DNA from: Frigoribacterium sp. Leaf8
GTDB taxonomy: Bacteria; Actinomycetota; Actinomycetes; Actinomycetales; Microbacteriaceae
Direction: 5' to 3'
DNA length: 49,476 nucleotides
Assembly: GCF_001421165.1 (NCBI RefSeq)
Contig: NZ_LMKB01000003.1
Coordinates: 1 to 49,476, forward strand
In this document: piece by piece, positions 13,638 through 49,122 of the stretch
How positions within the stretch are numbered: position 1 is the stretch's first letter
Layout: each line of letters starts with the position of its first letter
The notes under the pieces: generated by a model
Told to the model about the DNA's origin: nothing
Seen by the model: only the letters and a program-made list of their open reading frames with translations
Databases searched by the model: none
Program-made: the position numbers and the translations under genes

Positions 13638-13675
13638 AGGAGGCGCGGTGCGCGGAATCCGGCACCGCGCCTCCT
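13638..13675. terminator. bidirectional terminator built from an inverted GGAGGCGCGG pair
   Basis: AGGAGGCGCGGTGC (13638-13651) and its exact inverse (13662-13675) form a perfect 14-bp stem with a 10-nt loop between the convergent permease and alcohol dehydrogenase genes. It is the first appearance of the dispersed GGAGGCGCGG word in the window. Confidence 0.75.
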
Positions 13676-13688
13676 CGGGGTGGTCGCG

Positions 13689-14732
13689 TCAGGGGACGAT
13701 GACGGCCCGGCCGCGGACGGTGCCGGCGGCGAGGGCCTCGTAGGCCTTCGGGCCGTCGTCGAGCGAGTAGCGCTGCGTCGCGACCTCGACCTGACGGGCA
13801 CGGGCGAGGTCGAGGACCTCGATCAGTTCGCTGCGGCTGCCCCAGTAGGGGATGCGCACGGCGACGTCGTAGCCGATCGTGCCGAAGCCGAGCTCGACGG
13901 TGCCGCCACCGATGCCGACGATGGTCACGTCGGCGTCCGCCGCGGCGACCGCGACCGCCGTGGCCATGGTCGGCTTCGCCCCGACGAAGTCGAAGACGGC
14001 CTGGACGCCGAGGCCTCCGGTGATCTCGCGGATCGCGTCGGCGGCGTGCTCGTCGCTGATCACCGTGTGGTGCGCACCGACGTGCTTCGCCAGCTCGAGC
14101 TTCTCGTCGGTGACGTCGAGCGCGATGATCTGCGCACCCGAGAGCGCCCGCAGGATCTGGATGCCGACGTGCCCGAGGCCTCCGGTGCCGATGACGACGG
14201 CGTAGGTGCCGGCGCCGAGCTTCGGCAGCGAGGTCTTGATCGCGTGGTACGGCGTGAGGCCGGCGTCGGTGAGCGACACGTTCTCGACCGGGTCGAGGTC
14301 GCCGAGCGGCACCAGGTGGCGGGGGTCGTCGACGATCATGTACTCGGCCATCGACCCGGGAGCGCCGAGCCCGGGAGGCTTGATGCCCTCGGCGGCGGCG
14401 TTGACGCAGTAGTTCTCCTTGCCCTGGGCGCACTGGTGGCAACGGCCACAACCCCACGGGCCGTAGACGGCGACCGCGTCACCGACCTGCAGGTGCTCGA
14501 CGCCCTCGCCGAGCTCGGCCACGATGCCGGCGCCCTCGTGCCCGAGCGTGAGCGGCAGCGGGTAGCCCTGCGCCGTGTAGTCCTCTTCACCGAGGCTCAT
14601 GACGTACTCGTCGGAGTGGCAGACACCGGCCGCCGTGACCTTCAGCAGCACCTGCCCGGGGCCGGGTGACGGCTTCTCGATCTCGACGACTTCGGGGGGC
14701 TGACCTACCTGGGCGTACTGGAGTGCCTTCAT
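13689..14732 (-). CDS. zinc-dependent alcohol dehydrogenase
   Basis: A 347-residue medium-chain dehydrogenase. Catalytic zinc ligands are Cys38 (GVCHSD) and His65-Glu66 (LGHEGAG). The structural zinc site has Cys95, Cys98, Cys101 and Cys109 (CGRCHQC then NYC). The nucleotide-binding turn is VIGTGGLGHVG, followed by an Asp that favours NAD over NADP (ALDVTDEK). It oxidises alcohols or reduces aldehydes, and the cytoplasmic family is close to bacterial AdhA/AdhT types. The ATG at 14732 begins MKALQYAQVG, matching the usual start. It is a stand-alone gene between a bidirectional terminator and a divergent gene. Confidence 0.93.
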   Translation of the reverse strand: MKALQYAQVGQPPEVVEIEKPSPGPGQVLLKVTAAGVCHSDEYVMSLGEEDYTAQGYPLPLTLGHEGAGIVAELGEGVEHLQVGDAVAVYGPWGCGRCHQCAQGKENYCVNAAAEGIKPPGLGAPGSMAEYMIVDDPRHLVPLGDLDPVENVSLTDAGLTPYHAIKTSLPKLGAGTYAVVIGTGGLGHVGIQILRALSGAQIIALDVTDEKLELAKHVGAHHTVISDEHAADAIREITGGLGVQAVFDFVGAKPTMATAVAVAAADADVTIVGIGGGTVELGFGTIGYDVAVRIPYWGSRSELIEVLDLARARQVEVATQRYSLDDGPKAYEALAAGTVRGRAVIVP

Positions 14733-14886
14733 GGGCCGCAGGCTACGCCCGACCGCTGGAGAACGCACGACAGGTGTCGCGTTACTGGAGGCGTCGGGGC
14801 GCGGTCGGGGTCGTGCCGCCGGCGGTGTCGGGGCGTGGTGGTGGCGGTGACCGACGGTGACGGTGGTCGGCCCTACGATCGACGGC

Positions 14887-15573
14887 ATGGCACACCTGCA
14901 CCGGGCCGGCATGAGCCCCTCCAAGATCGACCTGCTCGACGCCTGGGTGCCGACCCAGCCGTGGTTCGAGGGCCCACCCCGGTCCGAGGGCACGGCCGAC
15001 GAGGGCCTGCGCAGCGTCGCGGCCTTCCGCTTCGACGACCCGGCGGGCGAGGTCGGCGTCGAGACGATCATCGTCGCCACGCCCGACGGCGTGCAGTTGC
15101 AGGTGCCCCTCACGTATCGCGACGCTCCCCTGGCCGGTGCCGACGACCACCTCGTCGGGACGACCGAGCACTCGGTTCTCGGCACGCGGTGGGTCTACGA
15201 CGGCACGGCCGACCCGGTCTGGGCCGCGGCCCTCGCGACGGCCGTGCTGACCGGCGGCACCCAGGCCGAGGCCTGGTTCGAGGTCGACGGCGAGCGACAG
15301 GTCCGCGAGCCGAACTCGACCGTCGTCGGCAGCGGCACCCCGGGCACCCCCGTGCCCGACGTCGACCGCCTCACCGTCGACCAGGTCGAGGGCCGGACGG
15401 TCGTCACCGGCGCGGCGGTCCGCATCGTCGTCGCCCGCGTCCTCGGTCGACACGACGCCGGCGCCCTCGCCTCGACCGGCGGCCACAGCGGCGACCACGG
15501 GGTCGAGGTCCTCACCGGCACGTGGACCGGGCACGACCAGCCCGAGACGCTCGCCGTCGTGCTCACGGCATAG
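14887..15573 (+). CDS. MaK N-terminal-cap-like protein (CG0192 type)
   Basis: A 228-residue protein resembling the N-terminal cap domain of actinobacterial maltokinases and the CG0192 family. It has a start with a conserved Trp (LLDAWVPTQPWFEG), AAFRFDDPAGEVGVETIIV, VPLTYRDAPLAGADDHLVGTTEHSVLGTRWVYDG, and ATAVLTGGTQAEAWFE. No kinase domain follows, so it is an orphan cap domain. Such proteins are linked by genome context to alpha-glucan metabolism, but no activity is established. The ATG at 14887 is 7 nt after a TACGAT box, consistent with a leaderless transcript. It ends at two stacked terminator hairpins. Confidence 0.82.
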   Translation: MAHLHRAGMSPSKIDLLDAWVPTQPWFEGPPRSEGTADEGLRSVAAFRFDDPAGEVGVETIIVATPDGVQLQVPLTYRDAPLAGADDHLVGTTEHSVLGTRWVYDGTADPVWAAALATAVLTGGTQAEAWFEVDGERQVREPNSTVVGSGTPGTPVPDVDRLTVDQVEGRTVVTGAAVRIVVARVLGRHDAGALASTGGHSGDHGVEVLTGTWTGHDQPETLAVVLTA

Positions 15574-15581
15574 CCACCTGC

Positions 15582-15620
15582 AGGAGGCGCGGTGTGCGGT
15601 CGTCGCGCACCGCGCCTCCT
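15582..15620. terminator. terminator from an inverted motif pair
   Basis: AGGAGGCGCGGTG (15582-15594) pairs perfectly with CACCGCGCCTCCT (15608-15620) across a 13-nt loop, 8 bases after the MaK-cap-like stop. It is the same stem as at 13638-13675. Confidence 0.7.
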
Positions 15621-15632
15621 CGACGTCCGGGC

Positions 15633-15676
15633 AGGAGGCGCGGGTGGCGTCCTCGACGAACCGCCCCGCGCCTCCT
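15633..15676. terminator. second terminator-like inverted motif pair
   Basis: AGGAGGCGCGGG (15633-15644) and CCCGCGCCTCCT (15665-15676) form a 12-bp stem with a 20-nt loop. It lies directly downstream of the previous hairpin, so four motif copies occur within 94 bases. Confidence 0.6.
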
Positions 15677-15768
15677 CGTCTCGTCCCCAGACGGTCGCCG
15701 GGTGACGGGACGGTGAACGATCGTGCACGGGGCTTCGTCGGGAGGCACGCTGCCGCTACGGTGGCCCG

Positions 15769-16929
15769 ATGACGGCGATCGACACCTCCCCGACGACCGC
15801 GGCCCCCGCGCCCGGCACGCCCCTCACGGGCACGACCCCGACGAGCAGCGACCACCTTCGGTCGCCCCTGTCGGGCACCAGCTCCTCGGGTACGGATTTC
15901 TCGGGTTCGCCCCTCTCGGGCACCGTGCTCGCGACGCCGCCCACGGCCGAGCTGCACCTGCACGTCGAGGGCACGCTCGAACCCGAGCTCGTCTTCGCCC
16001 TCGCCGACCGCAACGACGTCGACCTGCCCTTCGCCTCGGTCGACAGGCTGCGCGCGGCGTACTCCTTCGGCTCGCTGCAGGAGTTCCTCGACCTCTACTA
16101 CGCGTGCACGGCCGTGCTGCAGACCGCACAGGACTTCCACGACCTCGCCTGGGCCTACCTCGAACGCGCCCACGCCCAAGGGCTGCGTCACGTCGAGATG
16201 TTCTTCGACCCCCAGGCGCACACCTCTCGCGACGTCGACGTCGACGAGGTCATCGACGGGCTGACCCAGGCACTCGGCGAGGCACGCGAGCGGTTCGGCA
16301 TCACGGGCGGGCTCATCCTCTGCTTCCTGCGGCACCTGCCGGTGGGCGACGCGGCCGCGACCCTCGAGTCCGTCGCGCACCGCGCCTCCGACCTGATCGG
16401 GGTGGGGCTCGACTCCTCCGAGGTGGGGTTCCCGCCCGCCGCGTTCGCCCGCGTCTTCGACCGTGCCCGCGCGCTCGGGCTGCACGTCGTCGCCCACGCC
16501 GGCGAAGAAGGCCCGCCGTCGTACGTCACGGACGCCCTCGACCTGCTGCACGTCGAACGCGTCGACCACGGGGTGCGCAGCCTCGAGGACGACGCCCTCG
16601 TCGCCCGCCTCGTCGCCGACCGGGTGCCGCTCACCGTCTGCCCACTGTCGAACCTGCGGCTCGCGGTGGTGTCCGACCTGGCCGAGCACCCGCTGCCCCG
16701 CATGCTCGAGGCCGGGCTGCTCGTCACCGTCAACAGCGACGACCCCGCCTACTTCGGCGGCTACGTCGGCGACAACTACGAGGCGCTGCGCGACGTGCTC
16801 GGGCTGGACGACGACATGCTCGCCCTGCTGGCGACGAACTCGGTCGAGGCGTCGTTCGCCGACGCCGGCCGCAAGGCCGAACTCACCGCCGAGGTGCAGG
16901 CCTGGCGCGAGGCACGTCGCGCGGCCTGA
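15769..16929 (+). CDS. adenine deaminase of the adenosine-deaminase family
   Basis: 386 residues. After an unusual 55-residue Ser/Thr/Gly-rich N-terminus with repeated LSGT blocks comes the deaminase barrel: H63 and H65 of HLHVEG, the FFDPQAH block (145-151) typical of adenine rather than adenosine deaminases, metal/catalytic HAGEE (H243, E246), DHGVRS, and the Asp pair D324-D325 in NSDDPAYF. The predicted reaction is adenine to hypoxanthine plus ammonia in purine salvage. A TACGGT box 6 nt before the ATG supports this start and a leaderless mRNA. The low-complexity head is unlike normal members (about 340 residues). Partial copies of the gene end, including the stop, follow. Confidence 0.88.
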   Translation: MTAIDTSPTTAAPAPGTPLTGTTPTSSDHLRSPLSGTSSSGTDFSGSPLSGTVLATPPTAELHLHVEGTLEPELVFALADRNDVDLPFASVDRLRAAYSFGSLQEFLDLYYACTAVLQTAQDFHDLAWAYLERAHAQGLRHVEMFFDPQAHTSRDVDVDEVIDGLTQALGEARERFGITGGLILCFLRHLPVGDAAATLESVAHRASDLIGVGLDSSEVGFPPAAFARVFDRARALGLHVVAHAGEEGPPSYVTDALDLLHVERVDHGVRSLEDDALVARLVADRVPLTVCPLSNLRLAVVSDLAEHPLPRMLEAGLLVTVNSDDPAYFGGYVGDNYEALRDVLGLDDDMLALLATNSVEASFADAGRKAELTAEVQAWREARRAA

Positions 16930-17114: not shown

Positions 17115-18368
17115 CTAGAGCGTGCGGCCGGCGTTGGCCTCGAGCCAGGCCTTGGGGTCGACCTGCGTCGTGCCGCCGAGCAGCACCTCGAAGTGCAGGT
17201 GCTCGCCGGTCGCGACACCACTGCGGCCGACCTTGCCGACCAGCTCGCCCACCTGGACCGTCTGCCCGGCGACCAGCGGGCTCGAACCGATCTGCATGTG
17301 CGCGTACAGGGTGCTGACGCGCTGCCCGTCGATCACGTGGTCGATCACGGCGTACTGACCGAACTGGCCGTGCATGCCAGACGTGCGCACCACGCCCGCG
17401 GCCGCGGCACCGATGGGGGTGCCGCCGCCGGGCGTCATGTCGAGGCCCATGTGCATGCTCGAGCACGCCGCGCACGGAGCCGCACGGGGACCGAAGCCCG
17501 AGCTGAGGACGACCGAGCCCGGGAACGGCCAGCGGATGTCACCGATGCCCGAGTTGACGATGGTGCCGGCCCCCGAGGAGGCGCGGTAGGAGTTCGTCGA
17601 CCCCGCGACGTTCTTCGAGGTGACGACGGGCTCGGGCTCGGGTGGCGGAGGCGGCGGCGGCGGTGCGTCGGTCACCCCGAAGGCGTCGCGGTCGGACACG
17701 GTCAGCACCACGAGCGACGCCGCGAGGGTCTGGGTCGGCATCGGCGCGGCACCGGCGGTCGGGATGTTCGACCCACCCAGGTCGCTCGCCGAGGCGGGGG
17801 TGAGGTTCGACGTGAAGAAGAGCATGACGGCGCAGACGCCGAGCACGGGCAAGGTCGCCGCACGGACGCGCGACGAGACGGCCCGAAGCCGCGAACGGCC
17901 GGGGGTCGCCCGAGGGCTCGGGTTCGGGCGGCCGGCCTCTCGGGTCCGACGGAGCACGGCCGGCACGGAGGGGCGCGGTCGGCGCGCGACACGGGTCGCG
18001 GGTGCCGCCTCGGTGGCCGTCGCACCCACTTCCGAACCATGCACCCGGTTGCTCGTGGGTGCATCGTTCGACACCGGGTTCATCGCCGGGCTGGTCGCAG
18101 GAGCAGCGGAGGACGGTGCGGAGACGGGCGCAGCAGGAGCGGCGGCAGCGACCGGAGCAGTCGGAGGCGCAGCGGACGACGGGGCGGAGACGGGCGCAGC
18201 GGACGACGGGGCAAAGGCAGAACCAGCGTCGGCAGCGGCGGCAGCGGCGCGCTCGAGGGCGCGGGCCTCGCGGCGGGTCAGCGGCACGGCGGCACCGGGC
18301 GTCTGCTCGACGGGCGAGGTCGGCTCGGCCGGCACCGCGGTCTCGCGGGTGTTCGAGGGGTCGGTCAT
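17115..18368 (-). CDS. M23 family metallopeptidase (membrane-anchored)
   Basis: A 417-residue peptidoglycan endopeptidase candidate. Residues 1-170 are a cytoplasmic-type Ala/Pro/Ser-rich stretch with repeated SAPSSAAP units. A membrane helix lies at about 171-188. An extracellular linker contains a run of eight Pro (236-243). The catalytic LytM domain spans about 280-410 with zinc ligands H306 and D310 (HMGLD) and H390/H392 (HLHFEV). The ligand set is complete, so it should be active, cleaving wall cross-bridges or stem peptides. AGGAAG precedes the ATG. One copy of the dispersed motif lies in the coding sequence at 17577. Confidence 0.92.
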   Translation of the reverse strand: MTDPSNTRETAVPAEPTSPVEQTPGAAVPLTRREARALERAAAAAADAGSAFAPSSAAPVSAPSSAAPPTAPVAAAAPAAPVSAPSSAAPATSPAMNPVSNDAPTSNRVHGSEVGATATEAAPATRVARRPRPSVPAVLRRTREAGRPNPSPRATPGRSRLRAVSSRVRAATLPVLGVCAVMLFFTSNLTPASASDLGGSNIPTAGAAPMPTQTLAASLVVLTVSDRDAFGVTDAPPPPPPPPEPEPVVTSKNVAGSTNSYRASSGAGTIVNSGIGDIRWPFPGSVVLSSGFGPRAAPCAACSSMHMGLDMTPGGGTPIGAAAAGVVRTSGMHGQFGQYAVIDHVIDGQRVSTLYAHMQIGSSPLVAGQTVQVGELVGKVGRSGVATGEHLHFEVLLGGTTQVDPKAWLEANAGRTL

Positions 18369-20825: not shown

Positions 20826-20901
20826 CGTGGAGCGAGGTCCTCTCGGGGGTGGTGGGTTGCCTTGGGGGTCAGGAGGCGCGGGTCGCGTCCCCGACGGACG
20901 C

Positions 20902-24205: not shown

Positions 24206-24285
24206 TTCGCGGCGTGGCACCATGGGTCGTCGTCGAAAAGATCCGCCGTGTCGCGAGGCACCGGCCACAGCACGAGGAGGCGCGG

Positions 24286-25650: not shown

Positions 25651-25719
25651 GCGGCCCCTGGCCGGCGGGGCGGCGCGGGAGGCGCGGGGCGGCCCGGCGC
25701 ACGCCGCTAGGCTCGCGGG

Positions 25720-26376: not shown

Positions 26377-26445
26377 AGCTAGGGGCGACAGCGCCGGAGG
26401 GCGACAGCGCAGGAGGCGCGGGGCACGTCCGGCGGACGACCCGCG

Positions 26446-27930: not shown

Positions 27931-27980
27931 GCCGACCCGCGCCTCCTGCCGGTCGGCCCTCGGCCGGACGGACCAGACGC

Positions 27981-28022: not shown

Positions 28023-28063
28023 ACAGCTCGAGAGGCGGGGCGAGCCGAGGAGGCGCGGGCCGG

Positions 28064-33367: not shown

Positions 33368-33503
33368 CGCGACCCGCCTCGCGCACCATCCGGCACAACC
33401 CGCGGTCCGCGACCCGCGCGCCGTCGGGCGCGACCCGCGTCGGGTGGCGACCCGCGCCTCCAGGGGGCTGCCCCGCGTCGCGCGCACGCCGCCGGGTGAC
33501 GGG

Positions 33504-33680: not shown

Positions 33681-33753
33681 CGTGCCCGGCTGGCGGGACG
33701 TCCGAGGAGGCGCGGCGCGGCCTGCTCGCGCCGGCGCGGCTGACCGCCCGGGC

Positions 33754-35257: not shown

Positions 35258-35424
35258 TGGTTTCTCGACTCTCGTCCCGATCCGGTGCGTACCTTCTCAC
35301 CGCCGTGCATCTTCTGCACCGGCTCCATTAGAGCGCCTAGCTACTGTGAGTCGCATCCGGGGGCGACCACAGTTCGGTTTGTGGCCATGTCGAGCGGAAC
35401 CGCAGGAGGCGCGGCCGGCGACGG

Positions 35425-37846: not shown

Positions 37847-39256
37847 ATGACGTCACCGACGACCTCTCCCGCGGTGCCGGCCCGCACCGTGCCGACGCGC
37901 GAGGACCGCCGAGCCCGACTCGGCGTCGCCCTGCTCTTCTTCACCAACGGCGCCCTGATCGCGAACCTCCTCCCGCGCTACCCCGCGATCAAGGACGGCC
38001 TCGAGCTGTCCAACGCCGACTTCGGCCTGGCGGTCGCGGCGATGCCGGTCGGCGCGCTCGTCGCGGGGCTCGGCGCCGGATGGCTGATCCGCCGCCTCCG
38101 GTCGTCACGGGTGGCCGTCGTCGGCACGGTCGTCACCGGGGTCGCCGTCCTGCTGGCCGGCATCGCCCCGGTCGGTGGGCTGCTCGCCGCGGGCTTCCTG
38201 CTCGCCGGCGCCCTCGACGCCATCGTGGACGTCTCGCAGAACTCGCACGGACTGCGCGTGCAGTACCGCTACCGCCGGTCGATCCTCAACTCGTTCCACG
38301 CCGTGTGGAGCATCGGAGCCGTCCTCGGCGGGCTGATGGGCGGGGCGGCGGCGGGACTCGGCATCCCGATCGTCTGGCACCTCGGGGCCTCGGCGCTGAT
38401 CTTCGCCGTCGTGGCACTCGTCGCGTACCCGCTGCTGCTCGCCGGGCCCGAACCGGCCGAGGGGGCGGCCGAGGGCCCGTCCGAGACGGCCGACGCGGCG
38501 GTCCTGCCCGGCGACGACGTGACCGCGGGTGCCGGGGCGGCGGCCGCACCCGTGGCGACGGACGCCCCCGACGGCGGAGCGCAGGAGGCGCGGGCCGGCT
38601 CGGCGACCGGGGCGGGCTCCGTCGACGACGCGACCCGCACCTCCTCGGCTCGTGACCGTCGCCGCGTGTCGCCCGGGTTCGTCGCGAAGTGGGGCGTGCT
38701 GCTGGCCCTCGTCGTCATCGCGTCGTCGGGTGCCGTCGTCGAGGACGCCGGCAGCACGTGGGCCGCGCTCTACCTGGGCTCGCTCGGGGCCGGCGTGACC
38801 GTCGCCGCCCTCGGGTTCGTCTCGCTGCAGGGGGCCCAGTTCGTCGGACGACTGCTGGGCGACGGCATGGTCGACCGCTTCGGCCAGAAGGCCGTCGCCC
38901 GGGCCGGGGGCGTCTTCGTCGCGGTGGGCATGGGCATCGCCCTGGCGTTCCCGTCGGTGATCGGCACGATCCTCGGCTTCGCGGCGGCGGGGTTCGGCGT
39001 CGCGACCCTGATCCCGGCGGCGATGCACGCGGCGGACAACCTGCCCGGGTTCCGGGCCGGCACAGGGCTGACGCTGGTGAGCTGGCTGCTGCGACTGGGG
39101 TTCCTGGCGTCGCCGCCCGTCGTCGGGTTCGTCGCGGACTCGGCCGGGCTGCGGTACGGACTGCTGCTCGTGCCCGTGGTGGGCGTGGCCGTGGTGCTGC
39201 TCGCCGGGGTGCTCGAGGGACGTCGGGCCCGGGGGGCGGCACCGCGCGGCAGCTGA
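37847..39256 (+). CDS. MFS transporter 2 with long central loop
   Basis: A 469-residue major facilitator of the same YbjJ-like group (LLFFTNGALIANLLPRYPAIKDGLELSNADFGLAVAAMPVGALVAG). Between helices 6 and 7 lies an 80-residue Ala/Gly/Asp-rich loop that contains one exact dispersed motif (38584) and one variant (38635), which explains part of the extra length. The second half is EDAGSTWAALYLGSLGAG to the end. It is controlled by the TetR operator at 37831-37844. The substrate is unknown; two neighbouring MFS genes with an acetyltransferase suggest export of acetylated or toxic sugars. Confidence 0.88.
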   Translation: MTSPTTSPAVPARTVPTREDRRARLGVALLFFTNGALIANLLPRYPAIKDGLELSNADFGLAVAAMPVGALVAGLGAGWLIRRLRSSRVAVVGTVVTGVAVLLAGIAPVGGLLAAGFLLAGALDAIVDVSQNSHGLRVQYRYRRSILNSFHAVWSIGAVLGGLMGGAAAGLGIPIVWHLGASALIFAVVALVAYPLLLAGPEPAEGAAEGPSETADAAVLPGDDVTAGAGAAAAPVATDAPDGGAQEARAGSATGAGSVDDATRTSSARDRRRVSPGFVAKWGVLLALVVIASSGAVVEDAGSTWAALYLGSLGAGVTVAALGFVSLQGAQFVGRLLGDGMVDRFGQKAVARAGGVFVAVGMGIALAFPSVIGTILGFAAAGFGVATLIPAAMHAADNLPGFRAGTGLTLVSWLLRLGFLASPPVVGFVADSAGLRYGLLLVPVVGVAVVLLAGVLEGRRARGAAPRGS

Positions 39257-39768: not shown

Positions 39769-40275
39769 GTGCTGTCCACCGTGTACGTCAGTCGATCGTC
39801 GTACCCCTTCACCGACGACGACCTGGCCAACCTGCTGATGACCAGTCGCTCGAACAACGCCCGCCTGGGCATCACCGGCATGCTGCTGCACCGCGAGGGC
39901 CGCTTCATCCAGGTGCTCGAGGGGCCGGAGGAGGCGGTCCGCGAGCGCCTCGCCGTGATCGCGCGCGACCCCCGGCACACGGCCGTGCACACCATCGTCG
40001 ACGAACTCGTCGAGGACCGGCTGTTCCCCGCCTGGACCATGGGCTACCGGGCCGTCACGGACGACCTGGCGACGGTCCTCCCGGGCTACGCCGACGTCTT
40101 CGACTCCGGCACGGGCACCGGCACGGGCTCCGCCTCCGTCGCGGGTGCCGGCGTCCACGACGACTTCAGCAACCTGTCCCCGTCGTCGTCGCACAAGGTC
40201 CGCACCCTGCTGCGCTGGTTCCGTGACCAGCCGACCGACGTGACCGACGGGCTGTTCTCGCCCCGCGCCTCCTGA
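39769..40275 (+). CDS. BLUF-domain blue-light photoreceptor
   Basis: 168 residues. Residues 1-97 form a BLUF flavin-binding domain; the positions equivalent to AppA Tyr21, Asn45, Gln63, Trp104 and Met106 are all conserved at Tyr6, Asn30, Gln48, Trp89 and Met91, so the light-sensing hydrogen-bond network should be intact. A Gly/Thr linker follows (GTGTGTG near 112), then a 45-residue helical tail (SHKVRTLLRWFRDQPTDVTDG) and a terminal PRAS encoded by a dispersed motif. There is no output domain such as EAL or cyclase, so it acts through protein contacts. The GTG start has a GAGGAGG ribosome binding site 9 nt upstream. Confidence 0.92.
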   Translation: MLSTVYVSRSSYPFTDDDLANLLMTSRSNNARLGITGMLLHREGRFIQVLEGPEEAVRERLAVIARDPRHTAVHTIVDELVEDRLFPAWTMGYRAVTDDLATVLPGYADVFDSGTGTGTGSASVAGAGVHDDFSNLSPSSSHKVRTLLRWFRDQPTDVTDGLFSPRAS

Positions 40276-40393: not shown

Positions 40394-42724
40394 GTGTCGC
40401 ACCCCACCCCGTCGCCCACCGTCGTCGCGCCGTCCCGAGCACCCGACGCGTTCGTCCACCTGAGCAGCGCCGGCGTCAGCCTGCTGCTCGACGTCACCGA
40501 CGCGCGCCTGCCGGCGGTCCTGCACTGGGGCGCCGCCCTCGGCCGGCCGACGCTCGAGGACGTGCGGTCCCTCGCCGCCGCGGCGGTGCCGCCGTACGTC
40601 AACAACCTGATGGACGAACCGGTGCGCCTGGCGATCCTGCCCGAGCACCACGCGGGCTGGTCGGGCAAGCCCGGCGTCGGCGGCCACCGCTCGGACGGCG
40701 CCGACTGGTCGCCGCGGTTCATGGTCGACGCGCTCGACGTGACGGGCGAGGCGGAGGCGACCCGCGCCTCCTCGGGTCCCGAGCTGGTCGACGCCGGCGC
40801 CGCCGTCGTCACGGTCGAGGCGCACGACGACGTCGCCGGGCTCGCCGTCGTGCTCGAGATCGAGCTGACGGCGAGCGGGCTCGTCCGCACCCGGGCCGAG
40901 CTGACGAACGTCGCCGGGCGACGCGGAGGCGATCGGTCGACCCCCGGCGACGACCGGGCGGCGAGCACCGCGGCCGGCGCCGCGAGCACGGCGGCGGACG
41001 TGTACACGCTGACCGACCTGCACCTGGCCCTGCCGGTGCCGCCACGAGCCCGCGAGATCCTCGACTTCGCGGGCCGCTGGGGCAAGGAGCGCACGCCCCA
41101 GCGCCGCGAGCTCGTCGTCGGCGTGCACGAACGCGAGGGACGCAAGGGCCGCACCGGCCCGGACGCCGCGACCGTGCTGAGCGTCGGCGTGCCCGGGTTC
41201 GGCTTCGGCGCCGGCTCGGGAGAGAGCTGGGGGCTGCACGTCGGGTTCAGCGGCGGCCACCGGCACTACGCCGAACGCCTGTCGACCGGGGCGCAGGTGC
41301 TGGGCGGCGGCGAGTTGCTGCTGCCGGGCGAGCTGCGGCTCGAGGTGGGCGAGTCGTACCGCAGCCCGTGGGTCTTCGGCTCGTACGGCGACGGCCTCGA
41401 CGACCAGGCCCGGCGGTTCCACCGGTGGTTGCGCTCCCGCGAGCAGCACCCGACCCGCCCGCGCCCGATGACGATCAACGTCTGGGAGGCCGTCTACTTC
41501 GACCACGACCTCGCCCGCCTGCGCGACCTGGCCGACCGGGCCGCCGCCCTCGGCGTCGAGCGGTACGTGCTCGACGACGGATGGTTCCGGGGGCGACGCG
41601 ACGACCACGCCGGCCTCGGCGACTGGGTGGTCGACGGCGACGTCTGGCCCGACGGCCTGTCACCGCTGATCGACCACGTCACGGGCCTCGGCATGGAGTT
41701 CGGCCTCTGGTTCGAACCCGAGATGGTCAACGAGGACAGCGACCTCGCCCGCGAACACCCCGAGTGGATCCTGCAGACCGGCGACCGCCTGCCCCCGCGG
41801 TCGCGCGACCAGCAGGTGCTGAACCTCGGCATCGCCGGGGCGTTCGAGCACGTGCTCGGCCAGATGACGGCGATCCTCACCGAGTACGACATCGCCTACC
41901 TGAAGTGGGACCACAACCGCGACCTCGTCGACGCCGGCACCTGGCCGACCGGCGCCGCGGGCGTCCACGAGCAGACCCTCGCGGCGTACCGGCTGATGGA
42001 CGAGCTCAAGGCGAGGTTCCCCGGTCTCGAGATCGAGTCGTGCTCGTCCGGCGGCGCCCGCGTCGACCTCGGCGTGCTCGAGCGCACCGACCGCGTCTGG
42101 GTCAGCGACTGCATCGACCCGCTCGACCGGCAGCAGATGAACCGCTGGACCATGCAGCTCCTGCCGCCCGAGCTGCTCGGCTCGCACATCGCCTCGGGCG
42201 TCAGCCACTCGACCGGCCGCTGGCACGAGCTGTCGTTCCGGGCGGGCACCGCCCTGTTCGGTCACCTCGGCATCGAGTGGGACCTCGCCCGGGCCACCGA
42301 CGCCGAGAACCGCGACCTCGCCGGGTGGATCGCCCTCTACAAGGAGCACCGCCAGCTGATGCACACGGGGGACCTCGTGCGGGTCGACGAGGCCGACCCG
42401 TCGCTGCTGGTCTACGGCTCGGTCGCCGCCGACGCGAGCGAGGCCCTGTTCTTCCTCGCCTACGTGGGGCGGTCGGACGTCGCACCGCTCGGCCGCGTGC
42501 TGCTGCCCGGGCTCGACCCCGAGCGCCGGTACCGGGTCGCCCCCGTCACCGTCGGCGCGCCCGACCACGGCCTGACGCCCCCGCCGTGGTGGGGCACGGC
42601 GGACGAGGGCGGCGCGTACCCCGGGGTGGTGCTCGACGGGCGCGCCCTGGCGGTCGCCGGGCTGCAGGCGCCGTCGTCGTTCCCCGAGCGGGTCGTGCTG
42701 CTGCGGGTCACCGCCGCGGGGTGA
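40394..42724 (+). CDS. GH36 alpha-galactosidase
   Basis: A 776-residue retaining alpha-galactosidase. The N-terminal beta-sandwich ends near residue 330. The barrel follows: NVWEAVYFDHDLARLRDLADRAAALGVERYVLDDGWF, GLWFEPEMVN, YLKWDHNRD with the nucleophile D506, SCSSGGARVDLG, and WVSDCIDPLDRQQMNR with the acid/base D572. A short C-terminal sandwich closes the protein. It hydrolyses alpha-galactosides such as raffinose and melibiose; no signal peptide, so it acts in the cytoplasm on imported sugar. It starts at a GTG and is probably repressed through the palindrome just upstream. A dispersed motif is in frame at 40762. Confidence 0.94.
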   Translation: MSHPTPSPTVVAPSRAPDAFVHLSSAGVSLLLDVTDARLPAVLHWGAALGRPTLEDVRSLAAAAVPPYVNNLMDEPVRLAILPEHHAGWSGKPGVGGHRSDGADWSPRFMVDALDVTGEAEATRASSGPELVDAGAAVVTVEAHDDVAGLAVVLEIELTASGLVRTRAELTNVAGRRGGDRSTPGDDRAASTAAGAASTAADVYTLTDLHLALPVPPRAREILDFAGRWGKERTPQRRELVVGVHEREGRKGRTGPDAATVLSVGVPGFGFGAGSGESWGLHVGFSGGHRHYAERLSTGAQVLGGGELLLPGELRLEVGESYRSPWVFGSYGDGLDDQARRFHRWLRSREQHPTRPRPMTINVWEAVYFDHDLARLRDLADRAAALGVERYVLDDGWFRGRRDDHAGLGDWVVDGDVWPDGLSPLIDHVTGLGMEFGLWFEPEMVNEDSDLAREHPEWILQTGDRLPPRSRDQQVLNLGIAGAFEHVLGQMTAILTEYDIAYLKWDHNRDLVDAGTWPTGAAGVHEQTLAAYRLMDELKARFPGLEIESCSSGGARVDLGVLERTDRVWVSDCIDPLDRQQMNRWTMQLLPPELLGSHIASGVSHSTGRWHELSFRAGTALFGHLGIEWDLARATDAENRDLAGWIALYKEHRQLMHTGDLVRVDEADPSLLVYGSVAADASEALFFLAYVGRSDVAPLGRVLLPGLDPERRYRVAPVTVGAPDHGLTPPPWWGTADEGGAYPGVVLDGRALAVAGLQAPSSFPERVVLLRVTAAG

Positions 42725-42821: not shown

Positions 42822-42902
42822 CGAACGGTCGGGTAGGAGGCGCGGGTCGGGCAGGAGGCGCGGGTCGCGTCCCGAGGGGCGCTCACGCGAGCGCGCGCGG
42901 CG

Positions 42903-44213
42903 TCAGCGACCGAGCGCGTGCATCTGGATGGCGACGGCGGCGGCGCCGCGGGCCCACTCGTCGAACCGGAACTCCTGGACGAGCAGGCGGGGCGGTGGGA
43001 CCGCCCGGTGGGCGTCGCGTGCGATCGCCGCGTCCACCGCGGCCCCGCCGACGGTCGCGAGCCGCACGCCCTCACCCGACATGAGGACCACCTCGGGGTC
43101 GAGCACGTTCAGCACGCCCGCGATCAGCTGGCCCAGGACATCGGCGGCGGTGTCGACGACGACCCGCGCCTCCTGGTGTCCGTCGGCGGCGAGGACGAGC
43201 AGGTCGTCGTAGGCGACCGGGCGGCCGAGGGCCCGGGCGGCGGCGGCCTCGACCGCGGCGACCGTGAGGAACGCGCTCGCGCAGTCGTGGTGGCCGAGGT
43301 CGCAGGTGGGGGCCGGCACGTCGGCGCGGGCCGCAGCGGCGGCCGACGCGGGCACGGGCAGCGGCACCGGCACGCGCACCGGCACGGGCACGGGCACGGG
43401 CACCGGCACGGGCACGGGCGCGGCCACGCCCTCGGACACCACGATCCGCTGGTGCCCGACGCTGCCCGCCGAGGAGTGCGCCCCGCCGAGCACCTCGCCC
43501 GCGGCGACGAGGCCGAGCCCCACGCCGGCGCCGATCGTGACCAGGGCGAACGAGCGCAGCCCGCGTCCCTCGCCGAACCAGAGCTCGGCCTGGGTCAGCG
43601 CGCGGACGTCGTTCTCGACCCAGGTCGGCAGGCCGGTCGTGGCGGTCAGCAGCTCGGCGAGGGGCACGTCGTCCCAGCCGAGGAACGGCGCGTGCCGCAC
43701 GTGGGCACGGTCGACGACCTGTCCGCCGACGGTGACGCCGACCGCGCGGATGCGGTCGTCCCGGCCGCGGGCCGAGGTCACGACCGCCGCGACCTGGGCG
43801 ACGACGGCGGCGGGCGACGGGTCGGGCAGGTCGTCGTCGTGGCCGTCCAGCACCCTGCCCCGCTGGTCGGCCACGACCACGAAGAGGCGGTCACGGGTCA
43901 GCTTGACGCCGACGAAGTGGTGGGCGTCCGGGTCGAGGTCGAGCGGGACCGAGGGGCGACCCGAGCCGGACGGCGCGAGGGACGCGCGTTCGACCAGCAG
44001 CCCGCTCTCGAGCAGGGGTCTGGTGATGCGCGTGAGGCTCGGGCCCGACAGGCCGAGCCGGGCGGCGAGCTCGGTCCGGGGGCGGGCGCCGTGCACGAGG
44101 ATGTCGAGCACCACGGCCTGCGCGCTGCCGGCCAGCGGGGACCAGCCGCCGTGGGCGTGGCCGAGGGAACCGTGAGCGGGAGCGGCGTGCCCGGGAGCGT
44201 GGGAGTCCGTCAC
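42903..44213 (-). CDS. ROK family regulator with a (PV)n insertion
   Basis: A 436-residue ROK repressor. The winged helix is around 30-80 (TELAARLGLSGPSLTRITRPLLESGLL). The ROK fold follows: HHFVGVKLTRDRLFVVVADQRGRVL, WVENDVRALTQAELWFGEGR and TIGAGVGLGLVAAGEVLGGAHSSAGSVGHQ. Between this block and the zinc loop (CDLGHHDC) is an unusual run of Pro-Val repeats encoded by GGCACG-type hexamers (43361-43427), roughly 25 residues longer than normal. A TAGGAT box 6 nt before the GTG indicates a leaderless gene. It probably controls the convergent alpha-galactosidase through the operator at 40350-40374. Confidence 0.9.
   Translation of the reverse strand: MTDSHAPGHAAPAHGSLGHAHGGWSPLAGSAQAVVLDILVHGARPRTELAARLGLSGPSLTRITRPLLESGLLVERASLAPSGSGRPSVPLDLDPDAHHFVGVKLTRDRLFVVVADQRGRVLDGHDDDLPDPSPAAVVAQVAAVVTSARGRDDRIRAVGVTVGGQVVDRAHVRHAPFLGWDDVPLAELLTATTGLPTWVENDVRALTQAELWFGEGRGLRSFALVTIGAGVGLGLVAAGEVLGGAHSSAGSVGHQRIVVSEGVAAPVPVPVPVPVPVPVRVPVPLPVPASAAAAARADVPAPTCDLGHHDCASAFLTVAAVEAAAARALGRPVAYDDLLVLAADGHQEARVVVDTAADVLGQLIAGVLNVLDPEVVLMSGEGVRLATVGGAAVDAAIARDAHRAVPPPRLLVQEFRFDEWARGAAAVAIQMHALGR
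43361..43427. repeat. in-frame hexanucleotide repeat in the ROK gene
   Basis: Imperfect repeats of GGCACG/GGCACC encode alternating Val-Pro residues in the ROK protein. A unit length of 6 preserves the frame when repeat number changes. Confidence 0.75.
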
Positions 44214-44344
44214 GCGACGATCCTAGGTGGCCGACCCGCGCCTCCTCGTCCCGACGTCGGGCTCCGCCCTGGCCGAGCCGGCGCCGCGTCGGGTCCCCCC
44301 GACGCCCGTCGCTGCGTACCCCGCCACCCGAAGTGGGGGACAAC

Positions 44345-44358: not shown

Positions 44359-44386
44359 TGGCCGAACATGAGTCGTGGTGATCCTC

Positions 44387-44623
44387 ATGGACGAAACGCG
44401 CGAACTCCCCCTGTGCACGCTGTGCGCGTCGCCGACCCGTCTCGAGCCCAACCCGTTCTACGGCACGGCCCTCTCGGTGCACCGTCACGTGCTCGTCTGC
44501 ACCTCGTGCGCGACCGTCGGCTTCGCCCCGGCCGTCGCCGACGCCCCCGAGGAGGCGCGGCTCCGGTCCCGCCCCGTCGGCCTGCGTGCCCGCGTGGCCG
44601 GCTGGTACCGCGCGCTGCCCTGA
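44387..44623 (+). CDS. small CxxC zinc-binding protein
   Basis: 78 residues from the ATG at 44387 (MDETRELPLC); the frame is open 4 codons further. Two CxxC pairs (CTLC near 10-13 and CTSC near 39-42) build a likely zinc ribbon. The C-terminus is basic with RVAGWYRALP. No family is recognised. The dispersed motif lies within the gene at 44551, read EEARL. Confidence 0.6.
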   Translation: MDETRELPLCTLCASPTRLEPNPFYGTALSVHRHVLVCTSCATVGFAPAVADAPEEARLRSRPVGLRARVAGWYRALP

Positions 44624-45429: not shown

Positions 45430-47820
45430 TCACCCGGCGCGGAACCGCCGCAGGCGCAGGCTGTTCGTCACGACGAACACGGACGACGCCGCCATCGCCG
45501 CGCCGGCCAGCACGGGGTTGAGCAGCCCGAGCATCGCGACCGGGATCGCCGCGACGTTGTAGGCGAAGGCCCAGAACAGGTTGCCCTTGATGGTGCCGAG
45601 CGTGGCCCGTGACAGGCGGATGGCGTCGGCCACCCCGGCGAGCTCGCCGCTGACGACGGTCAGGTCGCCGGCCGCGATGGCCGCGTCCGTGCCGGTCCCG
45701 AGGGCGATGCCCAGGTCGGCGGTGGCGAGGGCCGCCGCGTCGTTGACGCCGTCGCCGACCATGGCGACGACGCGACCCTCGGCCTGCAACCGGGCCACCG
45801 CCTCCACCTTCTGCTGCGGGGTCGCCTGCGCCACGACGTCCGCCGCGGCGATGCCGACCTGCGCCGCGACGTGCCGTGCCGCGCCCGCGTTGTCGCCGGT
45901 CAGCAGCACGGGCGTCAGGCCCAGGCCGCGGAACCGCTCGACGGCCTCGCGCGCACCGGGCTTCACGGTGTCCGCGACGGTGACGACACCGCGCACCCGA
46001 CCGTCCCAGGCGACGGCGACGGGGGTCGCACCGGTCGCCTCGGCGGCGGCGAACGCCCTCTCGAGCCCGGGAGGCGCGGTGACCGACCACTCGTCGGCCA
46101 GCCACCCGGGGCGGCCGACCAGCACGAGCGTGCCGTCGACGAGGGCCTGCACGCCGGCCCCGGCGTGGGCGGTGAACTGCTCGGCGGCCGGGACGACGAC
46201 CCCGCGCCGGGCGGCCTCGGCCTCGACCGCGCGGGCGACCGGGTGCTCCGAGCCGGACTCCACGGCGGCGGCCCGGGCCAGGACGTCGTCGACCCCGGTG
46301 GCCGCGGCGTCGTCGAGGACGACCTCGCGCACGCTCATCCGCCCGGTCGTGACCGTCCCGGTCTTGTCGAGGACGATCGTGTCGACCGTGCGGGTGCGCT
46401 CGAGCACCTGCGGCCCCCGGATCACGATGCCGAGCTGCGAGCCGCGGCCCGTGCCGACCAGCAGCGCGGTGGGCGTCGCGAGCCCGAGCGCGCACGGGCA
46501 GGCGATGATCAGGGTGGCGACGGCGGCGGTGAACGCGGTCTGCAGCGACCCGGCGAAGAAGCCACCGCCCCCGGCACCCCCGACGAAGCCGCCGACCGCG
46601 AGCCAGCCGACGAAGGTCAGCACGGCCAGCCCGATGACGACCGGCACGAACACGGCCGAGACCCGGTCGGCCAGTCGTTGCACCTCGGCCTTGCCGCTCT
46701 GCGCCTCCTCGACGAGGCGACCGAGCCGGGCGAGCTCGGTGTCGGCCCCGACGCGGGTGATCTCGACGAGCAGGCGTCCGCCCACGTTGAGGGTCGCTCC
46801 GACGACGCGGTCGCCCGGGCCGACCTCGACCGGCACCGACTCGCCGGTCAGCATGCTCAGGTCGACCGCCGAGGTGCCCTCGCGCACGAGGGCGTCGCTG
46901 GCGATCGCCTCGCCCGGACGGACGACCACGAGGTCGCCGGGCACCAGACCCGCGGTGGCGACCCGCGCCTCCTGACCGTCGCGCAGGACGGTGGCCTCCT
47001 TCGCGCCGAGTTCGAGCAGGGCGCGCAGGGCCTCGCCCGAGCGGCGCTTGGCGCGGGCCTCGAGCCAGCGGCCGAGCAGGATGAACACGGTCACGGCCGA
47101 CGCGACCTCGAGGTAGAGCTCGGTCGGACCGCCGTGGGTGGCGACCAGGCTGAACGACATGTGCATGCCCGGCCGGCCGGCTTCGCCGAAGAACAGGGCC
47201 CAGAGCGACCAGGCGAAGGCGGCGACCACGCCGACGCTGACGAGGGTGTCCATGCTCGCGGCACCGTGGCGGAGGTTGACGGCGGCGGCGCGGTGGAAGG
47301 GCCAGGCACCCCACACGGCGACGGGGGCCGCGAGGGTCAGCGCGAGCCACTGCCAGTTCGTGAACTGCAGGGCCGGGACCATCGAGAGCACCACGACGGG
47401 CAGGGCGAGGGCGGCGCTGACGAGGGTGCGCCGGCGGAGGGCGTCGACCTCGGTGGCCCGGGCGTCCGGGGCGGCGTCGGACGAGCCGTCGGCCGCGCCG
47501 GTCGGGGACGCAGGAGGCGCGGGCACGGTGGCCCCGTACCCCGCGGCGGCCACCGTGGCGATGAGCGCGTCGACGTCGGGCACCCCGGGGTCGCCCTCGC
47601 GTGCGTCGTCGACGGCACCGGCCACGACCCGCACGTGCGCCTTCTCGGTCGCGTAGTTCACCGAGGCCTCGACGCCGGGCAGCTTGTTGAGCTTGCGCTC
47701 GATGCGGTTGGCGCAGGAGGCGCAGGTCATGCCGGTGATGTCCAACTGCACCGCATCGGGTGGCAGGGTGCCCCCGGTGACGCCCTCGCCCGGCCGACCC
47801 GCGCCTCCGGCGGTGGTCAT
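45430..47820 (-). CDS. copA: copper-exporting P1B-type ATPase CopA
   Basis: A 796-residue P-type ATPase with one N-terminal heavy-metal-associated domain (MTCASC, Cys33/Cys36), membrane helices, and a CPC ion motif in [14 protein letters not shown]. Phosphorylation site [17 protein letters not shown] (His-Pro motif), and hinge [10 protein letters not shown] are all present. The HP motif and CPC define copper(I) transporters. It exports copper(I) to the outside. The ATG overlaps the copZ stop (ATGA) and the operon lies behind a CsoR-like operator. Three dispersed-motif copies lie in the coding region, one close to the start (47799). Confidence 0.96.
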
Positions 47821-48044
47821 CGTGCGGAGAGCTGGTAGCCGGCCTCTTCGACGGCGGCGCGCAGCTGGTCGTGCTCGACGGTGGCGTCGGCCTGGACCGA
47901 GACGGTGGACGCGCCCCCGGGGTTGAGGTCGACCTCGACCGAGTCGACGCCGTCGACCTCGGAGAGCTCTTCGGTGACGCTCGCGACGCAGTGCTCGCAG
48001 GTCATGCCGTCGACCTGCAGGGTGGTGATGGTGGTGTCGGTCAT
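47817..48044 (-). CDS. copZ: copper chaperone CopZ
   Basis: A 75-residue heavy-metal-associated domain protein with the copper-binding MTCEHC motif (Cys16, Cys19) and the typical beta-alpha-beta pattern ([10 protein letters not shown], then VDSVEVDLN, then VEEAGYQL). It hands copper(I) to CopA, encoded by the overlapping downstream gene. A GAGAGGA ribosome binding site lies 7 nt before the ATG. Confidence 0.96.
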
Positions 48045-48073
48045 GCGCTGTCCTCTCGATCGGGCCTCAGCTT

Positions 48074-48090
48074 ATACCCCCTAGGGGTAT
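48074..48090. promoter_or_regulatory. CsoR-like copper operator of copZ-copA
   Basis: ATACCCC-CTA-GGGGTAT, a perfect 7-bp-arm palindrome; TATAAG on the minus strand at its edge serves as the -10 box. Binding of a CsoR-type repressor would block copZ-copA until copper(I) is present. The same type of site is at 10912-10928. Confidence 0.75.
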
Positions 48091-48219
48091 CCCTGCCAGG
48101 CCTGCCCGCCGGTTGTCCCCCACCTCCGAGATGCCTCCGAGACGGCCCGGCCCCCAGGGAGGCCGACTACTAACGGAGGGGTACCCGCCAGGACGGCGGG
48201 AGAGAGAAGGCACCCGACC

Positions 48220-49056
48220 ATGACCGAGATCACCGCACACCACGGCCTCTTCAAGGACACGAACCTGCACGTCGACGACACCGGCGGCACGGGTCGCACC
48301 GTCGTCCTGATCCACGGCTGGCCCCTGTCGGGTGAGTCCTGGAGCAAGCAGGTCCCCGCGTTCGTCGAGGCCGGCTACCGCGTCGTCACGTACGACCGCC
48401 GCGGCTTCGGACGCAGCGACAAGCCCAAGACGGGCTACGACTACGACCACCTGACCGAGGACCTGCACACCGTCCTCACCGAGCTCGACCTCGACGACGT
48501 CACGCTCGTCGGCTTCTCGATGGGTGGCGGCGAGGTCGCGCGCTACTTCAGCAGGTACGGCACCGAGCGCCTGCACAGCGTCGTCTTCGCCTCGGCCGTG
48601 CCCCCGTACCTGCTCAAGACCGACGACAACCCCGACGGCCCCCTCACCAAGGAGGCCGCCGCCGAGATGACGGCCGGCCTGACCAAGGACGAGGACTCGT
48701 TCTACGACGACTTCACGACCGGCTTCTTCTCGGTCGACGGCGTGCTCAAGGTGTCCGAGGCCGACCGCCAGGACGCCCTGCGCCTCGCGAAGCAGGCGGA
48801 CAAGGCCGCCGCGCTCGAGGCCATGGCCTCGTTCGCGAACACCGACTTCCGTGACGACCTGACCAAGGTCACCGTGCCGACGCTGGTCATCCACGGTGAC
48901 GGCGACGCGACCGTGCCGTACGAGGGCTCGGGCGCCCGGACGCACGCGGCGATCGCCGGGTCCGAGCTGCACGTGATCGCTGGCGCACCGCACGGCGCGA
49001 ACGTCAGCGACGCCGACGAGTTCAACCGCGTCGTGCTCGAGTTCCTCAAGAAGTAG
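48220..49056 (+). CDS. alpha/beta hydrolase (non-haem haloperoxidase/arylesterase type)
   Basis: A 278-residue alpha/beta hydrolase. The oxyanion-loop pattern HGWPLSG follows strand 3. The nucleophile elbow is GFSMGGG (Ser), the acid residue lies in HGDGDATVP (Asp), and the base in GAPHGANV (His). This layout is that of cofactor-free perhydrolases/chloroperoxidases, which are esterases in vivo. An AGAAGG ribosome binding site precedes the ATG. A 21-pair hairpin built from two dispersed motifs ends the gene. Confidence 0.92.
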   Translation: MTEITAHHGLFKDTNLHVDDTGGTGRTVVLIHGWPLSGESWSKQVPAFVEAGYRVVTYDRRGFGRSDKPKTGYDYDHLTEDLHTVLTELDLDDVTLVGFSMGGGEVARYFSRYGTERLHSVVFASAVPPYLLKTDDNPDGPLTKEAAAEMTAGLTKDEDSFYDDFTTGFFSVDGVLKVSEADRQDALRLAKQADKAAALEAMASFANTDFRDDLTKVTVPTLVIHGDGDATVPYEGSGARTHAAIAGSELHVIAGAPHGANVSDADEFNRVVLEFLKK

Positions 49057-49075
49057 AGCGGAACTAGACGCGACC

Positions 49076-49122
49076 GCAGGAGGCGCGGCGCCGGTCCTCG
49101 AGACCGGCACCGCGCCTCCTGC
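49076..49122. terminator. terminator from an inverted motif pair after the hydrolase
   Basis: GCAGGAGGCGCGG (49076-49088) pairs with CCGCGCCTCCTGC (49110-49122); the inner stem GCCGGTC/GACCGGC adds 7 bp around a 5-nt loop with one mismatch between. It lies 20 bases after the hydrolase stop. Confidence 0.75.

Follow-up and report, generated by a model that had tools for sequence, protein, structure and literature searches.

A dispersed word in Frigoribacterium that may serve as a DNA uptake sequence, with possible dialects in other Microbacteriaceae

The window, by which we mean the whole 49,476-nucleotide stretch of Frigoribacterium sp. Leaf8 DNA analysed here (NCBI RefSeq assembly GCF_001421165.1, contig NZ_LMKB01000003.1, positions 1 to 49,476, forward strand), carries a short word scattered over its genes and intergenic regions from 13.6 kb onwards. 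The 10-mer GGAGGCGCGG is present in 38 exact copies (21 on the plus and 17 on the minus strand), the first starting at 13639 and the last ending at 49119, compared with a mean of 1.31 and a maximum of 4 in 100 dinucleotide shuffles. A preliminary description of this DNA, which proposed that the word behaves as a DNA uptake sequence (DUS), had recognized its abundance and counted one copy fewer (37, oriented 20 to 17); its tally of 12 copies of a longer form and three of a longest form was exact for the 14-mer GGAGGCGCGGGTCG and the 19-mer form, respectively. Scanning 19 proteins encoded in the window from 13.7 kb onwards identified metabolic, transport and regulatory families. The copies, the four hairpins (A to D) formed by inverted pairs and the word-free stretch are as follows, where MFS denotes the major facilitator superfamily.

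13639 to 13648 (+): word copy 1, left arm of hairpin A
13665 to 13674 (-): word copy 2, right arm of hairpin A
13639 to 13674: hairpin A, an inverted word pair where two called genes converge; -43.7 kcal/mol, z -6.2
15583 to 15592 (+): word copy 3, in hairpin B
15610 to 15619 (-): word copy 4, in hairpin B
15583 to 15619: hairpin B, 9 bp past a gene end; -38.4 kcal/mol, z -5.6
15634 to 15643 (+): word copy 5, in hairpin C
15666 to 15675 (-): word copy 6, in hairpin C
15634 to 15675: hairpin C, a second pair after the same gene as hairpin B; -38.4 kcal/mol, z -4.4
16380 to 16389 (-): word copy 7, within the adenosine deaminase gene 15769-16929
17577 to 17586 (+): word copy 8, within the M23 peptidase frame 17115-18368
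20872 to 20881 (+): word copy 9, 14-mer and 19-mer form, outside called genes
24276 to 24285 (+): word copy 10, outside called genes
25536 to 25545 (-): word copy 11, 14-mer and 19-mer form, within the ROK gene 24286-25548
25678 to 25687 (+): word copy 12, outside called genes
26115 to 26124 (-): word copy 13, within the called gene 25720-26376
26412 to 26421 (+): word copy 14, outside called genes
27937 to 27946 (-): word copy 15, 14-mer form, outside called genes
28049 to 28058 (+): word copy 16, outside called genes
30122 to 30131 (+): word copy 17, within the glycosyltransferase gene 29675-33076
30902 to 30911 (+): word copy 18, 14-mer form, within the same glycosyltransferase gene
31006 to 31015 (-): word copy 19, within the same glycosyltransferase gene
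32384 to 32393 (+): word copy 20, within the same glycosyltransferase gene
32748 to 32757 (-): word copy 21, within the same glycosyltransferase gene
33452 to 33461 (-): word copy 22, 14-mer form, outside called genes
33706 to 33715 (+): word copy 23, outside called genes
35405 to 35414 (+): word copy 24, outside called genes
38584 to 38593 (+): word copy 25, within the MFS gene 37874-39256
40263 to 40272 (-): word copy 26, within the called gene 39769-40275
40762 to 40771 (-): word copy 27, 14-mer form, within the melibiase gene 40394-42724
42836 to 42845 (+): word copy 28, 14-mer form, in tandem with copy 29 at 18 bp
42854 to 42863 (+): word copy 29, 14-mer and 19-mer form, in tandem with copy 28
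43164 to 43173 (-): word copy 30, 14-mer form, within the ROK gene 42903-44213
44236 to 44245 (-): word copy 31, 14-mer form, outside called genes
44551 to 44560 (+): word copy 32, within the called open reading frame 44375-44623
46070 to 46079 (+): word copy 33, within the metal P-type ATPase gene 45430-47820
46963 to 46972 (-): word copy 34, 14-mer form, within the same ATPase gene
47513 to 47522 (+): word copy 35, within the same ATPase gene
47799 to 47808 (-): word copy 36, 14-mer form, within the same ATPase gene
49079 to 49088 (+): word copy 37, in hairpin D
49110 to 49119 (-): word copy 38, in hairpin D
49079 to 49119: hairpin D, 22 bp past a gene end; -49.9 kcal/mol, z -6.9
1 to 13638: word-free stretch, 0 copies; G+C 64.4%, compared with 73.7% for the rest of the window; two serine resolvases

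The word is not confined to this locus. Across the whole genome (3,328,572 bases in 12 contigs), GGAGGCGCGG occurs 1,578 times (787 plus, 791 minus) compared with 68 times (39 plus, 29 minus) for its reversed pattern, which served as the control for each word in whole-genome counts, and GGAGGCGCGGGTCG occurs 328 times (157 plus, 171 minus) compared with a single copy, on the minus strand, of the reversed control. In our statistical sample of 450 kb, composed of the window and 400 kb of contig C1, no 11-mer is more over-represented than AGGAGGCGCGG, which occurs 187 times where an order-4 Markov chain predicts 1.6. This rank, together with the genome-wide counts, indicates that the word is A followed by the 10-mer and that it is a property of the genome rather than of the locus. 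Its flanks show weak preference only (C at +12, G at +15, T at +16), and its one-letter variants occur at about the expected number, save at the ends (the first A and the last two G) and for a C-to-T change at the seventh letter (11 copies vs 1.2 expected). The shuffles, the Markov chain and a codon-preserving null (below) rule out chance or base composition as the origin of the word.

Both orientations are equally common, as had been claimed from the window. In the 400 kb of C1 the word occurs 104 times on each strand, with no strand bias in 20-kb bins (chi2 17.2, 20 bins, p 0.64), and the strand locally richer in G holds 117 of these 208 copies (p 0.08). With the replication axis unmapped, this balance speaks against polar signals of the KOPS (FtsK orienting polar sequences), AIMS (architecture imparting sequences) or Chi-like kind.

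The word is a mark of its genus. We assembled a panel of 60 genomes (designated by G numbers), comprising 15 of Frigoribacterium (Leaf8 included), 22 of other genera of the family (one each) and 23 of other families in the order. Copies of GGAGGCGCGGGTCG number 93-442 per genome in all 15 Frigoribacterium genomes, 0-3 in the 22 other family genera and 0-4 in the 23 genomes of other families. Among 396 Actinomycetota genomes, a draw in which Leaf8 alone represented Frigoribacterium, AGGAGGCGCGG occurs 1,106 times in Leaf8 (control 7) and at most 54 times in any of the other 395 (control 30). The 21-mer form was found in named genomes at 22 loci, 19 of them in Frigoribacterium, two in Curtobacterium and one in an unrelated metagenome-assembled genome.

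Within the sample, 138 of the 246 copies lie in genes, 107 outside and one on an edge, corresponding to 0.35 per kb inside called genes and 1.85 per kb outside; genes were called with a simple caller (coding fraction 0.88 in C1 and 0.79 in the window), such that any missed gene counts as outside. Shuffling synonymous codons within genes 200 times yielded 15.0 +/- 3.7 coding copies (maximum 27), and base composition predicts 1.5 copies outside genes. The coding copies are read in sense 60 times and in antisense 78 times (p 0.15), occupy all six frame/sense classes and most commonly specify the peptides TRAS, HRAS, GGAG, GGAV, EEAR, QEAR and PRLL. In the window, the occurrence in several frames agrees with the preliminary description, and our count of 18 of 38 copies in genes is compatible with the at least 20 it reported, because the caller leaves 21% of the window uncalled. 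When proteins were aligned with those of a sister genus (G018), words fell outside the aligned part or in gaps in 19 of 32 cases, compared with 71 of 960 random positions, indicating that words tend to occupy the variable parts of proteins.

Outside genes, the word is densest where genes converge (2.73 per kb), followed by tandem (1.88) and divergent (1.29) gaps. Among neighbouring copies that face each other, a spacing of 27 bp stands out (9 of the 23 within 150 bp), short tandem runs occur at 17-26 bp, and intergenic inward pairs within 60 bp number 14 in the Leaf8 genome against about 1.6 expected. The four pairs of the window fold at -38 to -50 kcal/mol, a stability that none of 200 shuffles equalled. 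The inverted pairs reported at 13.6, 15.6 and 49.1 kb are thus present, but no U-run follows any of the four hairpins, so the terminator role ascribed to them is not established. Words downstream of orthologous genes are shared between Leaf8 and G018 in 9 of 29 cases compared with 11 of 128 (p 0.003; p 0.14 for gaps of at least 60 bp and 0.03 for gaps of at least 100 bp), a co-location from which we conclude nothing because it is confounded by gap length.

The positions of the word are conserved between species above background. We aligned C1 to two near relatives, G005 (93% identical over 204,911 bp) and G014 (89% over 134,332 bp); 104 and 150, respectively, of the 208 C1 words have no aligned counterpart, nearly all owing to partial coverage of C1, and Leaf8-only DNA within the aligned span holds 3 and 4 of these. 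In G005, 59 of the 67 coding words and 33 of the 37 intergenic ones are identical, compared with 59% and 54.5% of random 10-mers and 35% and 40% of permuted words of the same composition; in G014, the figures are 31 of 41 and 14 of 17, compared with 43% and 45% (random) and 25% and 24% (permuted). Binomial p values for the excess over random 10-mers are 3e-7 (G005 coding) and 8e-6 (G005 intergenic), ranging to 2e-3 when G014 is included. The conserved footprint extends from about -3 to +9 around the word and no further. Where words differ, the coding changes comprise 7 substitutions and 1 gap (G005) and 8 and 2 (G014), and the intergenic changes 3 and 1 (G005) and 0 and 3 (G014); the differences between near species are mainly substitutions. 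For G008, a species further removed, 39 words could be aligned with no gap inside them, and 14 of these are identical. Conversely, words of G018 fall in ungapped Leaf8 sequence in 39 of 46 aligned cases, and at a single site AGGAGGCGCGG of Leaf8 aligns with AGGATCCGACG of G018.

DNA shared with G005 is enriched in the word, holding 104 copies in 204,886 bp (0.508 per kb) compared with 3 in the 23,459 bp found only in Leaf8 (0.128 per kb; p 0.002). Long word-free stretches of C1 include ribosomal-protein and RNA polymerase genes, both recognized by eye, and pilus genes, as expected of constrained sequence. The word-free stretch of the window, where zero copies have a Poisson p of 6e-4 at the density of the sample, is probably acquired DNA. 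It encodes serine resolvases (3108-3677 and 7179-7796, both on the minus strand), two DUF805 proteins and one DUF305 protein.

Other genera of the family carry abundant words of their own. Against a null in which synonymous codons were shuffled and intergenic DNA was resampled, CGGATGCCGC is the top word in G015 (60 copies vs 3.8 in 140 kb), G020 (29 vs 2.4 in 140 kb) and G022 (14 vs 1.0 in 40 kb), and GGATGCG forms are top in G034 and G035, where CACCGCATCC occurs 16 times vs 1.9 and 19 times vs 1.8 (140 kb each). In 200 kb of G018, from which GGAGGCGCGG is absent, AGGATCC occurs 158 times vs 25.5 and AGGATCCGA 35 times vs 1.3. In the larger samples (G015, G020, G034 and G035) these words, too, are balanced between orientations. 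Samples of 40 kb from G016, G017, G021, G025, G028, G030, G031 and G033 yielded either weak words or none that stood out.

Whole-genome counts of CGGATGCCGC and its control are 1,179 and 20 in G015, 729 and 26 in G022, 620 and 23 in G020, 412 and 48 in G023, and 353 and 22 in G036. At least 80 copies and an at least three-fold excess over control were found in 11 of the 22 family genera; the excess outside G015, G020 and G022 rests on whole-genome counts, the codon-controlled results for that 10-mer in samples being unclear. The 15 Frigoribacterium genomes have 24-44 copies, which is similar to or less than their controls, and the excess is under three-fold in each of the 23 genomes from other families. 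The count of AGGATCCGA is 612 in G018 and 1-55 in the other 59 genomes, and that of GGATGCGGTG is 278 in G035, 239 in G034, 136 in G025, at most 83 in the other family genera and at most 56 in the 23 genomes of other families. We judged these last two words by other genomes and the codon-controlled null because reversed controls vary in quality: the reversed AGGATCCGA includes CTAG and is scarce in all 60 genomes, and the reversed GGATGCGGTG is scarce in some other families as well (e.g. 50 vs 7 in G046). Common to all the genus words is GGA, in GGAGGC, GGATGC and GGATCC, and we infer that the words of the sister genera may be dialects of one system.

The same samples hold other repeats. In G035 (L067-L068, L094-L098), a second repeat with GACGGGAAAC and CCGTCAGTAG, probably a longer dispersed one, occurs in 9-14 copies in 140 kb vs about 0. 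A repeat with ATTCGAAGGA is present in 11 copies in 200 kb of G018 (L163-L172; 0.1 expected), once inverted beside an AGGATCC word, and CTCCTCAACC and GGGTTTCGAGAC are repeated 6-8 times in 40 kb of G022 (L053-L054). In Leaf8 itself, a local repeat with CGCAGCCCCGCA, unrelated to the word, has 8 copies (G000:C1:1-40000, L001-L002).

The Leaf8 genome encodes ComEA (SLBB plus helix-hairpin-helix) immediately before ComEC. It also has a Tad/Flp locus, adjoining a gene recognized by eye as topA, with a T2SSE ATPase, a T2SSF protein, a DUF4244 protein that looks like the Flp pilin, and TadE-like proteins (18.3 bits, under the TadE Pfam cut-off of 22.9), and a type IVa pilus (T4aP) cluster at about C1:314010-327752 with pilM, pilB and prepilin-like genes, its other genes having been named by eye. 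Micrococcus luteus, a member of the same order (Micrococcales), transforms by ComEA/ComEC and Flp pili according to passages of PMC4322843, and passages of PMC11577799 describe the small-genome freshwater relatives Rhodoluna lacicola, itself of the Microbacteriaceae, and Aurantimicrobium photophilum as naturally transformable. The parts shared by word carriers, ComEA/ComEC and Tad/Flp, are therefore those known to work in the order. For Frigoribacterium, the open-licence text returned by our literature search holds no report of natural transformation. The ComEC gene (L183:4699-8184, minus strand) lies in a single 1161-aa open frame with a DNA polymerase III delta C-terminal domain, of the same length in G005, which is either a fusion or a run-on frame.

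These data suggest that AGGAGGCGCGG is probably a DUS of Frigoribacterium and one dialect of a family of words in the Microbacteriaceae. We prefer uptake with dialects because it would explain together the density of the word, its balance between strands, its placement, the hairpins, its depletion in Leaf8-only DNA, conservation that ends at the word and its change from genus to genus. Recognition, preferential uptake, a receptor and a drive are the parts that we infer. In this model, a receptor specific for the word would bind free DNA from lysed kin at the cell surface; the Tad/Flp pilus and ComEA would then move the DNA through the wall, and it would enter through ComEC as a single strand and be recombined. 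If tagged DNA were preferred, alleles holding the word by point mutation would spread and be preserved; the word would accumulate where proteins and RNAs tolerate it and be rare in newly acquired DNA, and a shift in receptor preference would shift the dialect of a genus. The uptake interpretation of the preliminary description is thus supported in part: copy numbers above the Markov and codon nulls beyond the locus, unbiased strands, conserved positions, enrichment in shared DNA and sister-genus words speak for it, and a terminator role of the hairpins is not established.

Several observations weigh against this reading. One-letter variants of the word are scarce, which makes it sharper than other uptake words are known to be. 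Inverted pairs are a hallmark in Neisseria; inward pairs within 60 bp are absent from the samples of G018, G020 and G034, and inverted pairs are few or weak in G008, G015 and G035. Relative to G014, depletion in Leaf8-only DNA is weak (0.432 per kb shared vs 0.273 per kb Leaf8-only). Leaf8 words aligned with G018 are gapped inside the word in 5 of 18 cases, compared with 19 of 908 controls, which makes insertion possible for some words. Four of the five family members with genomes of at most 1.5 Mb lack an excess of CGGATGCCGC and the fifth has a small one (G019, 19 vs 5), though small-genome members transform.

Points of the same kind come from the machinery. ComEC is present in 58 of the 60 genomes, with or without the word, and ComEA lies beside ComEC also in family members with no clear word (G024, G030). 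In three of the 15 Frigoribacterium genomes (G002, G003 and G006), which hold 343-442 copies of the 14-mer, pilM was not found; T4aP pilB is absent from the same three and present in the other two of the five genus genomes tested, each of the 20 genomes of that search giving at least one weak match that we took for the Tad ATPase. T4aP as a necessary part is thus unsupported, since word-rich genomes lack both genes. The Leaf8 pilin stretch (G000:C1:318122-322223, L016/L017) cannot be aligned with G005, a bearer of the same word, and the blocks flanking it are 87-93% identical; these pilins may be fast-evolving or exchanged, and a T4aP minor pilin is less likely as the receptor of the word.

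The main rival to uptake, which we regard as unlikely, is a genome-wide site for an intracellular DNA-binding or DNA-modifying protein, with selection for a role in the nucleoid, in repair or in methylation keeping the word in place. On that explanation one would see the same high density, conservation and variants particular to each genus. The word is no palindrome, however (GGAGGCGCGG differs from its own reverse complement), and at 11 bp without a palindrome it would be a long site for a methyltransferase to recognize; the placement of inverted pairs at gene ends also speaks against this rival, and depletion in Leaf8-only DNA is not specifically predicted by it. A precedent exists in cyanobacterial HIP1 (highly iterated palindrome 1), an iterated word tied to methyltransferases (PMC4390886).

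A Chi-type recombination signal for a RecBCD/AddAB/AdnAB-like nuclease is improbable. Such a signal would likewise be over-represented, lineage-specific and present in coding DNA, but Chi is read in a single orientation and typically favours the leading strand, and we found no skew in bins and none clear with local G skew; the five-fold higher intergenic density and the inverted hairpin pairs are unexpected for it. Very unlikely, too, is a small mobile or amplifying repeat inserting copies of itself, of the REP (repetitive extragenic palindrome) or MITE (miniature inverted-repeat transposable element) type. The intergenic enrichment, hairpins and short tandem runs would fit, as would the gapped words in the G018 alignment and the fact that all three intergenic differences from G014 are gaps. 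More than half of the copies lie in genes, however, whereas REP and bacterial interspersed mosaic elements are extragenic, with a longer palindromic unit and a cognate transposase; coding words differ mostly by substitutions, most G018 words fall in ungapped Leaf8 sequence, and conservation ends at the word, with weak preference beyond. A segregation signal of the KOPS/AIMS type would also be a short, genome-wide word, but it needs replichore polarity, and the balance in C1, the window, the bins and the larger sister-genus samples leaves it scarcely credible. An effect of translation or composition (the Shine-Dalgarno core AGGAGG, which lies within the word, or a codon or dipeptide preference for frequent readings such as TRAS, GGAG and EEAR) is just as hard to credit given antisense copies as common as sense ones, the codon-preserving null (15 coding copies vs 138 observed) and words of other genera that lack AGGAGG.

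Returning to uptake, we tentatively propose something broader, which might well hold: that Microbacteriaceae label their genomes with genus dialects of one uptake word (core GGA-N-S-C), a self-recognition like that of the Neisseriaceae in Gram-positives, served by the Tad/Flp pilus and ComEA/ComEC and by a new kind of receptor rather than a T4aP minor pilin. If so, self-labelled transformation would have arisen independently in Gram-positives, without an outer membrane and probably without a T4aP receptor; why such words evolve and what reads them could be tested in a new setting, and the right word for each genus would be a practical key to laboratory transformation of Microbacteriaceae.

To our knowledge, only two families of Proteobacteria have established uptake sequences, and the titles and abstract openings of the open-licence literature searched report no uptake word in Actinomycetota. 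The uptake signal sequences (USS) of Pasteurellaceae have AT-rich helical flanks, unlike the weak flanking preference of the Frigoribacterium word. They resemble the words described here in that they diverge among members of one family, and their receptor, long unknown, is now proposed to be a minor pilin (PMC12616744). Cyanobacterial HIP1 is, like our word, highly iterated throughout the genome, but it is a palindrome linked to methyltransferases (PMC4390886), and the Frigoribacterium word is non-palindromic. With Micrococcus luteus, Frigoribacterium shares the order and the ComEA, ComEC and Tad/Flp genes (passages of PMC4322843); the portions of the M. luteus transformation literature searched mention no uptake sequence, a review's passage on the matter concerning Neisseria.

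A close parallel exists with the DUS of Neisseriaceae. Frigoribacterium differs in being a Gram-positive of a high-G+C phylum whose word is a candidate uptake sequence, in that no receptor like ComP was found, in lacking T4aP genes in three of its 15 genomes, when the Neisseria receptor ComP is a minor pilin of such a cluster, and in that inverted pairs are rare in its sister genera. Frye and colleagues, in passages of PMC3630211, describe clade-specific dialects with a CTG core, inverted pairs and permissive positions. The likeness lies in an over-represented word of about 10 nucleotides, genic and intergenic, with inverted pairs and permissive core-genome positions, and in dialects along the phylogeny built on a short core, CTG in Neisseriaceae and GGA in Microbacteriaceae. 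The sister-genus words CGGATGCCGC, AGGATCCGA and GGATGCGGTG, which are new here, resemble the Neisseriaceae dialects in this respect.

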